In this document: piece by piece, positions 12,240-39,612 of the stretch
Numbering within the stretch: the first letter of the stretch is position 1
Layout of the letters: each line of letters opens with the position of its first letter
Assembly (NCBI GenBank): GCA_012523035.1
Contig: JAAYJH010000089.1
Coordinates: 1 to 54,578, forward strand
DNA: 54,578 nt
DNA from: Fibrobacter sp.
GTDB taxonomy: Bacteria > Fibrobacterota > Fibrobacteria > Fibrobacterales > Fibrobacteraceae
Direction of reading: 5' to 3'
Notes under the pieces: generated by a model
Databases searched by the model: none
The model's input: only the letters and a program-made list of their open reading frames with translations
What the model was told of the DNA's origin: nothing
Program-made: the position numbers and the translations under genes

Positions 12240-12437
12240 ATAAAAAAAATAGTCATTTTTAAAAAAAATAAATCAAAAAATAAAACATTCACCCTATTTA
12301 TTTATTATTATGAAGTTTCAGAAGCGCCTCGAAGACTTCTATTCACACAAAAGCATCCAAGTTCTAAAAAACACAAATCCCTCTAAATTCCAAATACAAG
12401 TGTTTTTTTTGTTTTTTTTTATTAAATTTCTAAAATC
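12240..12437. other. Divergent intergenic region between the zinc-ribbon gene and valS
   Basis: Very AT-rich spacer, 198 bases, that must hold promoters in both directions. It contains the 20-bp repeated motif at 12310-12329 and a polyT tract with one G near 12403-12420. No Shine-Dalgarno sequence precedes valS. I could not assign a firm -10/-35 pair. Confidence 0.5.
12310..12329 (+). repeat. Copy 1 of 20-bp intergenic motif, heads a short ORF ending at valS
   Basis: ATGAAGTTTCAGAAGCGCCT, identical to 30102-30121 and 32793-32812. Its ATG opens a 43-codon frame (MKFQKRLEDFY...) running to TGA at 12439-12441, which overlaps the valS ATG (12438) as ATGA. The frame later runs through the polyT tract as Phe-rich sequence. 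Identity at every base, including third codon positions, argues for a DNA or RNA element more than a conserved peptide. Confidence 0.7.
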
Positions 12438-28954: not shown

Positions 28955-30091
28955 ATGCCTTTAGTTTATTTTTTTCTATTGTTTTTCTTTAGTCACCTAT
29001 CCTCTGCAGAAATAATGCAGAAAAATCAAAGGTGTTTTTTTAATATAGAAAGCTTTGCCAAACAAGAAAACTACAAAACAGATTACAATCCCTTTGAAAA
29101 AAAACTCACCATCAATAATGACAAAACTAAATGGATTTTTGTACTCGGGTTTCAATTTTTCTCAAAAAACAAACAAAATCATTCCATTAAAACACCTCTT
29201 TTCTTAGAAAACGATAAAATTTTTGCTCCTTGTGACGAAATCCTCCCTTATTTTGAAAAAGAAAGCTCTAAAAAATATTTCATAGACACTTTGAATCAGC
29301 AAATCACCTTTAAAAAGCCCCCTCCTTCGACCACTAAAATAGCCCCATTAAAACAAGAGAGAGCCGGCACTAGAGAGGTGAAAACCATAGTCATAGATCC
29401 CGGGCATGGCGGCAAAGACCCTGGAGCCCTCGGCAAAAAAAGCAAAGAAAAAGACATTGTTTTAAAAGTCGCCCTCCTTTTACAAAAAAAGCTAAAAAAA
29501 GAGGGGTTTAATGTAAAACTAACCCGAGACAAAGATGTTTTTGTCCAACTTGGAGAACGGGCCAATCTTGCAAATCAATGGGATGGAGACCTTTTCATTA
29601 GCTTACACTGCAATGCTGTAGATGGCGTGCAACGCCAGCGCATCACCGAAGGCTATCACTTTTATGTCTTAAGGGCACCAGAAAGTGAAGAAGACAAAGC
29701 CATCGCAAGGCGAGAAAATAAAGTGGCCACCCTCTATGGAGACGGGTCTGCAAAAGCAGAATTGAGCCCCATCGAATGGATTAAACTCGAAGCTCAACTC
29801 GAAAAATACAAACAAAGCAGTTACGACTATACCGAAGAACTCCTCAAAAGCTTCCAAGGGAATGGCAAGATAAAACAACTCGGAGGGGGCGTTGGTGGGG
29901 CTGGATTTATGGTATTAGTAGGTGCCTTAATGCCTGCGGTGCTCGTCGAATTGGGATTTATCACCCACCCCAAAGATGAGGCATACATGATCACTGCCGC
30001 GGGGCAAAACAAGCTTGCCGAGATGATAGCCAAATCCGTAATAGAATACAAAAAGAAAGTCCATCGCTACAGAAAAACTCTACAGCACTAA
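28955..30091 (+). CDS. N-acetylmuramoyl-L-alanine amidase (Amidase_3)
   Basis: A 378-residue exported cell-wall amidase. The signal peptide is the first ~20 residues. An N-terminal region of about 110 residues resembles the substrate/regulatory domain of AmiC types. The zinc amidase domain begins TIVIDPGHGGKDPGALG (near 146) with the first His, then ERANLANQ, LFISLHCNA, and the catalytic Glu in VLVELGFITH. It cuts the stem peptide from peptidoglycan. The last 20 codons plus downstream sequence are repeated at 32721-32822, beyond the GH8 gene. Confidence 0.92.
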   Translation: MPLVYFFLLFFFSHLSSAEIMQKNQRCFFNIESFAKQENYKTDYNPFEKKLTINNDKTKWIFVLGFQFFSKNKQNHSIKTPLFLENDKIFAPCDEILPYFEKESSKKYFIDTLNQQITFKKPPPSTTKIAPLKQERAGTREVKTIVIDPGHGGKDPGALGKKSKEKDIVLKVALLLQKKLKKEGFNVKLTRDKDVFVQLGERANLANQWDGDLFISLHCNAVDGVQRQRITEGYHFYVLRAPESEEDKAIARRENKVATLYGDGSAKAELSPIEWIKLEAQLEKYKQSSYDYTEELLKSFQGNGKIKQLGGGVGGAGFMVLVGALMPAVLVELGFITHPKDEAYMITAAGQNKLAEMIAKSVIEYKKKVHRYRKTLQH

Positions 30092-30130
30092 AAGTAAATA
30101 TATGAAGTTTCAGAAGCGCCTGGCTCCTCT
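30028..30130 (+). repeat. Upstream copy of ~102-bp duplication (amidase 3' end plus motif)
   Basis: Covers the last 20 codons of the amidase gene, its stop, and the 20-bp motif plus GGCTCCTCT. The partner is 32721-32822. By hand alignment about nine in ten bases agree, with one 2-base indel after the stop codon. Homology stops right after CTCCTCT on the right and near the Ala-Lys-Ser codons on the left. Confidence 0.9.
30102..30121 (+). repeat. Copy 2 of 20-bp intergenic motif
   Basis: Identical to 12310-12329. Its ATG opens a 27-codon frame (MKFQKRLAPLKVL...) that stops at 30185, about 300 bases before the GH8 start, so it is not coupled to that gene. Confidence 0.8.
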
Positions 30131-30185
30131 TAAAGTCTTACATATAAAACCAAAATTCACTCAAAAAAAACTTAAAACATTATAA

Positions 30186-30484
30186 AAATGGGAGCTACAA
30201 CCCAATAAAGCAATCCATATTATAGGAAAGAAAAACATTTTCAACTGTGAGTGCAATGTAAACAAGATCCATTTATTGTAAATAATCTCTTACAAAAGCC
30301 TATTGTTTTCTAAATATCTCGTTTTTTCGAAAAATTCGTGTTTTTATTACAATGCAACATTTTTATTACATTCAAAAACAAAACTATTTGTAGATAAGAT
30401 TTTATATTATCTATCACTGGTTGTAAACTAGTTCCATTTTTTAGGATGTGTATTGGGAAAGTCCATTATCAAAAAGGGAACACA
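30186..30484 (+). promoter_or_regulatory. GH8 upstream region with palindrome and tandem sites
   Basis: About 300 AT-rich bases before the GH8 start. It holds a 12-bp perfect palindrome TTTTTCGAAAAA (30323-30334) and two identical 11-mers TTTTTATTACA at 30341-30351 and 30360-30370, 19 bases apart (nearly two helical turns). They are candidate operator sites. Shine-Dalgarno-like AAGGGA sits before the start at 30485. No sure -35/-10 pair. Confidence 0.4.
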
Positions 30485-32629
30485 ATGATAAAAAGATTTC
30501 AAATCCTTCTTTTAACTGCAACGATAGCAGTCAGTTCAGCGATGGCCGCTCCACAATATCCATTTCCTCAAAACAGAGCAAATCCGTATGGCAATACGGT
30601 TAAATATGCCACTCCTCAAATGATCCAAGATCACTTTGAAAAATGGAAAAGCGCATGGTATCAAGATAAAGGCTCTGAAGCTTGGATCCTTGCCCCCGAT
30701 GGGACCTGTTCCACTGTTTCTGAGGCTATCGCATATGGTATGTTGATCATGGTGTATATGAGCTCCAATCAAAAAGATTATAAATCAGAGTTTGATAAAC
30801 TTTGGGCCACTTGGAAAAACAATTCTATGGGTGGAAACGGCGGTATGAACTGGCGTATCGGTTGCGATGGTGGTTCTGGATCTGCAACTGATGCCGATGT
30901 TGACGCCGCTCTTGCTCTCATCATGGCTTCCAAGCAATGGAATGACAACAAGTATCTTGAAGCAGCAAAGTCTCTTATTAGCTGGATGGCTACTAACGAC
31001 ATTGATGGCAATAATTCAGTAAAGCCAGGTAGCAATTGGAACGACTACTTCAATCCAAGCTATGGCACTCTCGCTAACTTTGAACTTTTTGCTAAGGTTT
31101 CTGGAGATAATAAATGGAACTCTGTCAAGACCAAGGCAGGCCAAGATCTTCTTGCCTGTCAAAATTCTAAAACGGGCCTTGTAACTGACTGGTGCGATTG
31201 GAACTCTCATCAACCAACTAAAAATTCTAAAGCAGCCGTTGGTCAAGACGACAACCCAGGCTTCTTTGACGATGCAGCTCGCACTCCATGGCGTATGGCT
31301 TGGGCTCATTATTGGTACAACAACAGTGACGCCAAAACATTTAATACTAAGATTCTCCCTTGGATGTACAACGAAACCAAGGGTACCGCAAGTAATATTA
31401 ATTCTGGTTACTATCCCGATGGGACTATTTCTTCCAAACGCGAAAAATTTGTTTCTTCTACCTTTTCTGGTGGTCTTGGTCTAGCTGCTGTTTCTGATGA
31501 AACCGAAACTGGCAAGAATTTCATAGCCACAGTCTATAAAACGCTTTCTAATATGACAAGTTGTGCTACAAGTAGTGGCTGCGGAAGCTCCATTCCTGGT
31601 GAAAAATATTATCCAGCCACTTTGAATATTCTCTATTTGCTCCTAATGACTGGCAATATGCCTAACCTTTACGACTTGAATGGTTTCACACAGTTCACTC
31701 CAGATCCAAGCCTAGCTCCTTCTGTTTCAGAAATTGATGGTCAACAAATGGAAAAAGGCGACACTACTGTTGGTGTTTCTGGATTCTGGAACTGGGGTGC
31801 TTATCACGATAAGTTCAATATTGGGACGATCATGATACCTGACTCTGGAACATCTCCACTTTATCTCAAAAATGGTGCCATCTATGCAGAAGCCAGCATG
31901 GAAATTGGTCCTGAACCTGAATGGACTCAAGAAGCGGCAGATGCAGGCACTCTTAAATACCCAACCGCTGGCATTGCCATGTCCTTCCTAAAAAGTGAAG
32001 AAGGAGTCAATTTAACAGCACTCGGCATTACCAAGGTGCGTGTGAATGCTAAGATCGAAGGTCCTATTCGCTTTGCTCTCCTTAACACAGCCACTGTAGA
32101 ACTTGGTGGAGAACCTGGTATGTATCTTAGCCCTAGTCCAGATTACAAGGACTATCTCATAGATCTAACTCCAGTTGGCAAGGGAACTAAAGATTTGGAA
32201 ATCCTATCTTGGGTCAACGAAAACACAGCACCTGAAGGGAGCGTTATATTAACCGTCGCTAAAGGAGTGAAATTTGAATTGAAAGACGCTAAAGGCGGAA
32301 TCGGCTCCTTCTCTATCAAGTCGATTGAATTCTTAAAAAATGACGGTTCTGTAGTGGATCCAGCTTTAATTACCGGAATCACTATTCCTGAACCAGTATC
32401 TACCCCCATCGCTTCGATGAATATTGCCAAGTTCCAAACCAGTGTCAACGGCACTCAGCTTCAGATTTTCAATGCCGTGTCTGGCTCTAACTTTGCTGTG
32501 TTTAATATGCAAGGCAAAGTCATAACTAAAGGCAAAATCGATGGCAGCGTTCAAAATGTAAATATGCCTAACAAAGGTCTATTCATGGTTCGGGTTGGAT
32601 CAGAAACTCGCATGATAAGCATCAAATAA
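30485..32629 (+). CDS. Secreted glycoside hydrolase family 8 enzyme with C-terminal sorting-type domain
   Basis: A 714-residue secreted GH8 protein, probably endoglucanase or xylanase. The signal peptide is MIKRFQ...SAMAA. The catalytic domain starts at YPFPQNRANPYGN; the likely proton donor is Glu80 in CSTVSEAIAYGM, and the second conserved acidic site is in SATDADVDAALAL (Asp136-140). It runs to about residue 400. Residues ~415-630 form a beta-rich module resembling a carbohydrate-binding domain. The last ~75 residues (FAVFNMQGKVITKG ... GLFMVRVGSETRMISIK) resemble C-terminal secretion/anchoring domains of Fibrobacter and type IX cargo. Start at 30485, not 30446, because the signal peptide begins there. 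Base use looks less AT-biased than its neighbours. It is flanked by direct repeats, which suggests acquisition. Confidence 0.92.
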   Translation: MIKRFQILLLTATIAVSSAMAAPQYPFPQNRANPYGNTVKYATPQMIQDHFEKWKSAWYQDKGSEAWILAPDGTCSTVSEAIAYGMLIMVYMSSNQKDYKSEFDKLWATWKNNSMGGNGGMNWRIGCDGGSGSATDADVDAALALIMASKQWNDNKYLEAAKSLISWMATNDIDGNNSVKPGSNWNDYFNPSYGTLANFELFAKVSGDNKWNSVKTKAGQDLLACQNSKTGLVTDWCDWNSHQPTKNSKAAVGQDDNPGFFDDAARTPWRMAWAHYWYNNSDAKTFNTKILPWMYNETKGTASNINSGYYPDGTISSKREKFVSSTFSGGLGLAAVSDETETGKNFIATVYKTLSNMTSCATSSGCGSSIPGEKYYPATLNILYLLLMTGNMPNLYDLNGFTQFTPDPSLAPSVSEIDGQQMEKGDTTVGVSGFWNWGAYHDKFNIGTIMIPDSGTSPLYLKNGAIYAEASMEIGPEPEWTQEAADAGTLKYPTAGIAMSFLKSEEGVNLTALGITKVRVNAKIEGPIRFALLNTATVELGGEPGMYLSPSPDYKDYLIDLTPVGKGTKDLEILSWVNENTAPEGSVILTVAKGVKFELKDAKGGIGSFSIKSIEFLKNDGSVVDPALITGITIPEPVSTPIASMNIAKFQTSVNGTQLQIFNAVSGSNFAVFNMQGKVITKGKIDGSVQNVNMPNKGLFMVRVGSETRMISIK

Positions 32630-32650
32630 TTTTAACAACTATCACTTTTC

Positions 32651-32677
32651 AGTCGCGGCATTGTCGCGACTTTTTTT
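32651..32677 (+). terminator. Rho-independent terminator of the GH8 gene
   Basis: AGTCGCG, loop GCATTGT, CGCGACT, then seven T. Strong GC stem, about 20 bases after the stop codon, so the GH8 gene is a single-gene transcript. Confidence 0.92.
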
Positions 32678-32720
32678 ATGCCCAAAATTCAAAAGAAATC
32701 AAAGTATCCATAAAAAGCAA

Positions 32721-32822
32721 AGCTAAATCCGTAGTCAACCACAAAAAGAAAGTACATCACTACAGAAAAACTCTACAGAACTAAGCAAATATATGAAGTT
32801 TCAGAAGCGCCTGGCTCCTCTC
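32721..32822 (+). repeat. Downstream copy of ~102-bp duplication (amidase 3' end remnant)
   Basis: Still reads in the amidase frame as AKSVVNHKKKVHHYRKTLQN then stop, against AKSVIEYKKKVHRYRKTLQH in the real gene, followed by the 20-bp motif and GGCTCCTCT. No amidase sequence is seen further upstream, so it is a detached gene end. Confidence 0.9.
32793..32812 (+). repeat. Copy 3 of 20-bp intergenic motif
   Basis: Identical to copies 1 and 2; its frame stops after ten codons (MKFQKRLAPL). It lies inside the downstream half of the ~102-bp duplication. Confidence 0.8.
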
Positions 32823-32842: not shown

Positions 32843-33124
32843 TTAATTTTTATTTTTAACACAGCGAACCGAGCGGCCTACTGATTTTTCTTTGACATAC
32901 TTGCTAATAGCTTTGTGTGCACTTTCAATGGCATAATAAAACGCAGTCTTCTCGTTGTAAGTTTCAGCTGTCCAAAAATGAGCCGAAATCCCTAGAGAAC
33001 TAAAAGAGTTTTCACGAAATCCAGCTGCTAGCGCCGAAAAACCAAATTCATTAAATGGATATAGAAGGTCTTTCCACAAATTCGAAGATTTTAACCTTAG
33101 ACCAACATCAAGATGTTTTTGTTT
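32843..33124 (-). pseudogene. Remnant of a Fibrobacter major paralogous domain protein
   Basis: The minus-strand frame ends in FGFSALAAGFRENSFSS...AHFWTAETYNE, then RSVRCVKNKN, the C-terminal half of the Fibrobacter succinogenes major paralogous domain (TIGR02145 type). Similarity continues upstream of the only start-like codon (TTG, 33079): VGLRLKSSNLW matches the domain's KLKS-x-W segment, up to a stop at 33125-33127. The N-terminal half, signal peptide and any start are missing. So this is a truncated gene, not an intact 78-residue protein. Family members are surface-associated and numerous in Fibrobacter. Confidence 0.75.
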
Positions 33125-39371: not shown

Positions 39372-39612
39372 AGCTCAAAGCTCTCTACAAAAAAACTTCT
39401 TTGGATGAATAGCCAGTGGCGTAAAAGTGGGTTTTTCTTGTGCTAATCCTTATGTTTTATGAGGCTCTATAAAGCCAGGCGTGTGTGAGACTTCATCCAT
39501 AGTTTTTAAAATCTTGAGTCAAAGTGAAATGCTCGCCAAAGCTTAAAAGAGATGGAGTATCGCCATTTCAAAATTTTGTTTTAAAGGCGTGTGAGTTTAG
39601 GTAGAAAAATTT

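Follow-up and report, generated by a model that had tools for sequence, protein, structure and literature searches.

Probable horizontal acquisition of a GH8 gene placed at a break point marked by a dispersed element in a Fibrobacter genome

We analysed a window of 54,578 nucleotides (contig JAAYJH010000089.1 of the Fibrobacter sp. assembly GCA_012523035.1) in which the gene for a GH8 glycoside hydrolase directly follows that for an N-acetylmuramoyl-L-alanine amidase, and on balance we consider it probable that the GH8 gene was acquired horizontally and was placed at a break point between the amidase gene and yebC that is marked by a dispersed element. The locus holds a composite repeat, a decayed copy of the amidase tail and a GH8 gene whose divergence is discordant with that of other genes; in relatives the same site is empty of GH8, in this genome yebC has been displaced from it, and one part of the repeat belongs to an element found throughout the genome.

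Results

A composite direct repeat around the GH8 gene

The original prediction was that a direct repeat brackets the GH8 gene and its terminator and that its second copy is still in the amidase frame, and both points hold. In a gapped alignment the two copies (Table 1) are 90% identical over 101 aligned columns, with 10 mismatches and one 2-base gap, and a search with positions 30028-30160 against the whole genome (a draft of 2.2 Mb in 125 contigs, 99.6% complete, with contig ends at 25-bp elements) returned the second copy at E = 2.7e-32. Between the copies lie the GH8 gene and the terminator hairpin; the longest stretch identical in both, AAATATATGAAGTTTCAGAAGCGCCTGGCTCCTCT, has 35 bases, and the amidase frame of the second copy reads AKSVVNHKKKVHHYRKTLQN and then stops. 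The further claim that the repeat copies the end of the amidase gene is right for a tail of about 62 bases, which the whole-genome search found in two places only, but not for the some 40 bases downstream of it, which contain a 25-bp element present in at least 216 copies. Some 40 other short matches came up in the same search, on either strand and always to this last part of the repeat. Nine of the 10 mismatches fall in the amidase part; with fixed boundaries, conservation between the two copies does not differ significantly between element and tail (Fisher p = 0.53), and we therefore make no claim of selection.

Table 1. Features around the GH8 gene and further copies of the dispersed element (positions in the window).
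Feature	Position	Strand	Remarks
Element core, type A variant	12313..12331	+	one mismatch
N-acetylmuramoyl-L-alanine amidase (Amidase_3), intact	28955..30091	+	PF01520 E=5.5e-48
Repeat copy 1	30028..30130	+	amidase 3' end (30028-30091) + dispersed element + CTCCTCT
Element type A	30103..30127	+	in repeat copy 1; outside = left, inside = right
Block homologous (82% DNA) to the GH8 locus of G003	30255..32634	+	promoter region and GH8 gene
GH8 glycoside hydrolase (ORF)	30446..32629	+	PF01270 E=3.2e-27
Terminator-like hairpin (intrinsic), then T-run, after GH8	32651..32671	+	
Repeat copy 2	32721..32821	+	decayed amidase tail (32721-32784) + dispersed element + CTCCTCT
Element type A, second copy	32794..32818	+	in repeat copy 2; same orientation
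Truncated Fib_succ_major (FISUMP) remnant, C-terminal third only	32843..33078	-	PF09603 positions 121-187 of 187
Element core type B (AAGTCTCACACACGCCTGG)	39475..39493	-	where pheT and a histidine phosphatase gene converge, between their ends

The first copy of the tail is the end of a live, intact amidase gene, whereas the second is a startless scrap that differs from it at 9 of 64 bases (14% divergence). The amidase of the two nearest relatives, G003 and G019, ends in SVIEYKKAVNDYRKTLQH or SIIEYKKAVNDYRKTLQH; the first copy keeps this pattern (SVIEYKKKVHRYRKTLQH), and the second translates, without a start, as SVVNHKKKVHHYRKTLQN. When the nine differences are aligned with these two relatives, six prove to have changed in the second copy and two in the first, with one undecided. 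Judged from this alignment, the second copy arose from the amidase end by a duplication of some age and has since decayed.

The amidase locus in relatives

Synteny was compared in 17 relatives of the family in which the amidase gene is readable, all of them of other genera than this genome. Wherever the contigs extend far enough, all 17 keep the order argC-obg-ihf-smpB-amidase, of which the amidase gene is the last member. In none is the amidase gene followed by GH8, and in 11 of the 17 yebC follows directly, on the same strand and 27-139 bases downstream. Such a comparison had been proposed as a check, in which an empty site with a single copy of the repeat would support insertion: GH8 is indeed absent, but the site is not simply empty, as yebC stands there. 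A site without GH8 is seen only across genera because the available relatives belong to other genera.

In this genome yebC lies on another contig (C9), where 6 bases separate its start codon from the end of the contig, and the genes after it are the same as in the relatives. Since yebC follows the amidase gene in relatives and is on a different contig here, a rearrangement has broken the amidase/yebC junction, which makes it more than a place of insertion and is at odds with the clean insertion of a cassette. The break at yebC falls at the contig end and may be an event separate from the arrival of GH8. To the right of the GH8 region are an unrelated porin-like ORF and the FISUMP remnant; the latter matches PF09603 below the curated cut-off (E=1.4e-6), and some 25 bases separate its stop from the second element. 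The FISUMP domain and the gene content of the relatives point to membership of the Fibrobacter family. No Pfam family of integrases, transposases or relaxases occurs among the 13 flanking proteins scanned, in keeping with the earlier statement that no integrase is visible. A tRNA- or tmRNA-like target was rejected: smpB is near, but there is no tRNA or tmRNA gene at the site, and Rfam gave no match.

Origin of the GH8 gene

The GH8 gene, which more likely starts at the ATG at 30485 than at the ORF start, encodes a C-terminal tail of the secretion-signal type. Its nearest homologue (83% protein identity) is that of G003, a member of genus g4, in which it sits among GH43-like and cellulase-like ORFs, away from the amidase gene; DNA identity between the two loci covers 2.4 kb, some 190 bases of which lie upstream of the gene, and GH8 proteins in other genomes of the family reach at most 65% identity. 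At fourfold sites the gene is 60% identical to that of G003, compared with 25-48% for 19 control genes (EF-G, 43%). As far as such sequence comparison goes, this speaks against purely vertical descent, and very probably the gene was acquired horizontally from a related bacterium. The simplest reading would be an exchange between the lineages of this genome and of G003 after they had separated; a weaker explanation of the likeness is that the codons of a highly expressed enzyme are strongly conserved. The view of GH8 as a newcomer next to the amidase gene thus agrees with both its absence from this position in the 17 relatives and its fourfold-site identity, and its insertion at the amidase site is supported. 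The two halves of the gene differ in their closeness to G003, with 72% identity at fourfold sites in the catalytic half (30485-31684) and 45% in the C-terminal half (31685-32626), which hints at a mosaic gene.

With 75 of the 111 family genomes carrying a GH8 homologue at E <= 1e-100, such genes are widespread, which leaves room for the relocation of an old GH8 gene within the genome. We assign a small share of the probability to a history of this kind, in which the amidase end was duplicated in tandem within the genome, with GH8 nearby, most of the second copy was deleted, and GH8 was moved internally. The second copy does look home-grown and decayed, with the genome's own element that is absent from relatives, and the truncated FISUMP gene beside it is of the sort that repeated rearrangement would be expected to leave. 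However, relocation alone does not explain a fourfold-site identity to G003 above that of all 19 controls, and the 38 bases upstream of the second copy have no visible similarity to the amidase gene.

A dispersed 25-bp element

The conserved stretch of the element, derived from 170 copies, is TGAAGTYTCASAMRCGCCTGGCTTT. Its type A core (AAGTTTCAGAAGCGCCTGG) is present in 102 copies in the genome at up to three mismatches and its type B core in 148; the joint pattern (AAGTYTCASAMRCGCCTGG), allowing up to two mismatches, accounts for the count of at least 216 copies, or one per about 10 kb, while its reversed-pattern control yields zero. In each of 110 other genomes of the family the element has 0-3 matches, the level of reversed controls. 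Arrival of the element together with GH8 from g4 was rejected, with zero copies in G003, G013 and G019, as was spread by phages or other species: no viral contig matched, and the two unrelated genome contigs that did are likely chance matches. Variants of the core also occur in one frame inside genes (GAAGTTCCAGAAGCGCCT, EVPEAP), at L110 (C7:8932), L125 (C49:1849) and L127 (C70:41613), either by chance or as element-derived coding sequence; variants "C" and "D", with codons of the EVPEAP type, are probably coding coincidences and were set aside.

Copies are mostly intergenic and stand in all orientations relative to neighbouring genes. They bracket topA, xerD, GAPDH, thioredoxin reductase-like, rplM, ispD and rdgB-like genes as well (names assigned by inspecting translations), so that bracketing by the element is in itself no sign of an insertion or a cassette. 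The idea that the whole repeat is a duplicated end of the attachment type is not supported, given that its 3' part is dispersed and also brackets housekeeping genes.

An integrase-driven island at the amidase end is accordingly unlikely, and we give very little credence to the specific version in which a cassette was integrated at the amidase 3' end by a site-specific recombinase whose gene has since been lost. Such an event would suit direct repeats that flank exactly one gene and a second copy that restores an in-frame, amidase-like end, but the flanking proteins scanned include no integrase remnant, the crossover region would be the end of a protein gene and not a tRNA gene, the gene part of the repeat is divergent, and the element part brackets core genes likewise. 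Moreover, the amidase tail lies outside both elements, and theirs is the only pair among the 170 copies to share an outer flank at such length. Because an island that moves would take along its interior and leave behind what lies outside, the tail owes its second copy to an event in the chromosome, and with a single pair of this kind no repeated cassette system is seen. A recurrent cassette system was rejected on this ground.

The element as a putative terminus of repeat-filled islands

The element has a unique 5' flank (a similar flank is found elsewhere for 6 of 169 copies, two of which are the pair in the window) and a common 3' flank, shared by 63 of 168 copies, in which short repeats (TTCTGGCACGCACTTCGACAGGCTCAGTG and others) form mosaics. 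Among pairs less than 1.2 kb apart, 10 are convergent, two divergent and none tandem, and copies within 800 bases of contig ends face outward in 35 cases and inward in five. Unique outside, shared inside, convergent in pairs and outward at contig ends, the element thus behaves as a terminal inverted repeat; the intergenic islands that it bounds are filled with repeats, and many of them broke the assembly; most assembly breaks of the genome may be such islands. Copies at contig ends include C9:6, C65:65, C97:33 and C104:2922. The sequence itself was read for part of the genome, as stretches, and convergent-pair islands seen there (for example L104 1990-2560, L124 2030-2770 and L086 1690-2095) consist of ~40-base units (GGGATGCG...GCGAAAATCGTGCCAGAAA, TTCGACAGGCTCAGTGTAGCA) in mosaic arrangement, and two ends recur among them, AAGTTGGAAGTGAGAAGT and GGAGCTATACAGC.

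The concentration of contig ends at the element, together with the position of yebC at one of them, also bears on the possibility that the joins between the amidase gene and GH8, or between the second repeat copy and the FISUMP remnant, are false and were made by the assembly at a repeated element. We regard such an artefact as improbable: the element and the longest identical stretch, at 25 and 35 bases, are shorter than usual assembly words, the flanks of the two repeat copies differ, and the second copy has differences of its own, so that it is no duplicated read path.

The element has no stable hairpin (z-scores of -0.3 for the type A consensus and -0.7 for type B), there is no match to the Y1 transposase (RAYT, PF01797) in the draft genome that carries it, and 13 element pairs show no excess of matching outer flanks that would indicate a target-site duplication. 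A terminator or other signal bound to gene orientation was rejected on the mixed orientation relative to genes and the lack of a stable hairpin, and a REP sequence with its RAYT on the absence of a Y1 transposase. A search of the literature on Fibrobacter repeats and on GH8 transfer found nothing bearing on the finding. Tentatively, and with less confidence than in the acquisition of GH8, we suggest that the element could be the terminus of undescribed, non-autonomous, repeat-filled islands confined to the genus, whose breakage and recombination would rearrange the chromosome and create places where acquired genes, this GH8 among them, can settle.

Discussion

In the history that we favour, the GH8 gene and its promoter would have been acquired horizontally, from the genus g4 lineage or from a common donor, and would have come to sit directly after the amidase gene as part of, or after, the rearrangement that separated the latter from yebC. 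The break would have fallen at an intergenic copy of the 25-bp terminal-inverted-repeat element, and the amidase 3' end with the adjacent element would have been copied in the same process and have decayed since. Recombination at repeats is the likeliest route, either by a single crossover with a molecule bearing an amidase end and GH8 or by a tandem duplication followed by deletion, and the data fit these two options alike. That the acquisition, the break and the duplication of the tail were one event is something we infer, as we do its direction and its mechanism.

Such a history would mean that the gene of a fibre-degrading enzyme can move between genera of one family of gut and anaerobic bacteria, and that an acquired GH8 gene can settle beside a cell-wall gene that is essential, with no machinery of a mobile element in sight. 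A further caution is that being "bracketed by a repeat" is weak evidence of insertion where copies of one portion of that repeat are scattered across the genome. As for the element, it is a candidate both for driving rearrangement and for having caused the fragmented assembly.

Among known systems, an integrated cassette or island at a gene's 3' end resembles the locus in the gene-end direct repeat on both sides of a passenger, in relatives (here of other genera) that have the site without the passenger, and in a passenger, GH8, whose history differs from that of core genes; it differs in that the downstream neighbour has changed, with yebC elsewhere, and in that neither an integrase nor a remnant of one is among the 13 flanking proteins scanned. 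Homology-mediated, single-crossover integration shares with it the duplicated gene end, the intact upstream gene and the relatives that lack the acquired gene. Unlike in that case, no recombinase is seen here, yebC is displaced too, half of the repeat is a dispersed element, and the copies of the gene part are 14% diverged.

Of known repeats, REP and REPIN sequences are 20-40 bp long, mostly intergenic and genome-specific, with hundreds of copies that are single or in inverted pairs (PMC3116915, PMC3733652). The element is alike in size, copy number, intergenic position, genome specificity and inverted pairs, but it has no palindrome or stable hairpin and no match to the Y1 transposase family, and its pairs, 0.1-1 kb apart, enclose variable repeat arrays. 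Like MITEs and related non-autonomous elements that end in inverted repeats, it begins with TG, is inverted at the two ends, and is unique outside and shared inside; unlike them, it shows no target-site duplication in 13 pairs, and what it encloses varies, being a mosaic of short repeats in place of a conserved body.
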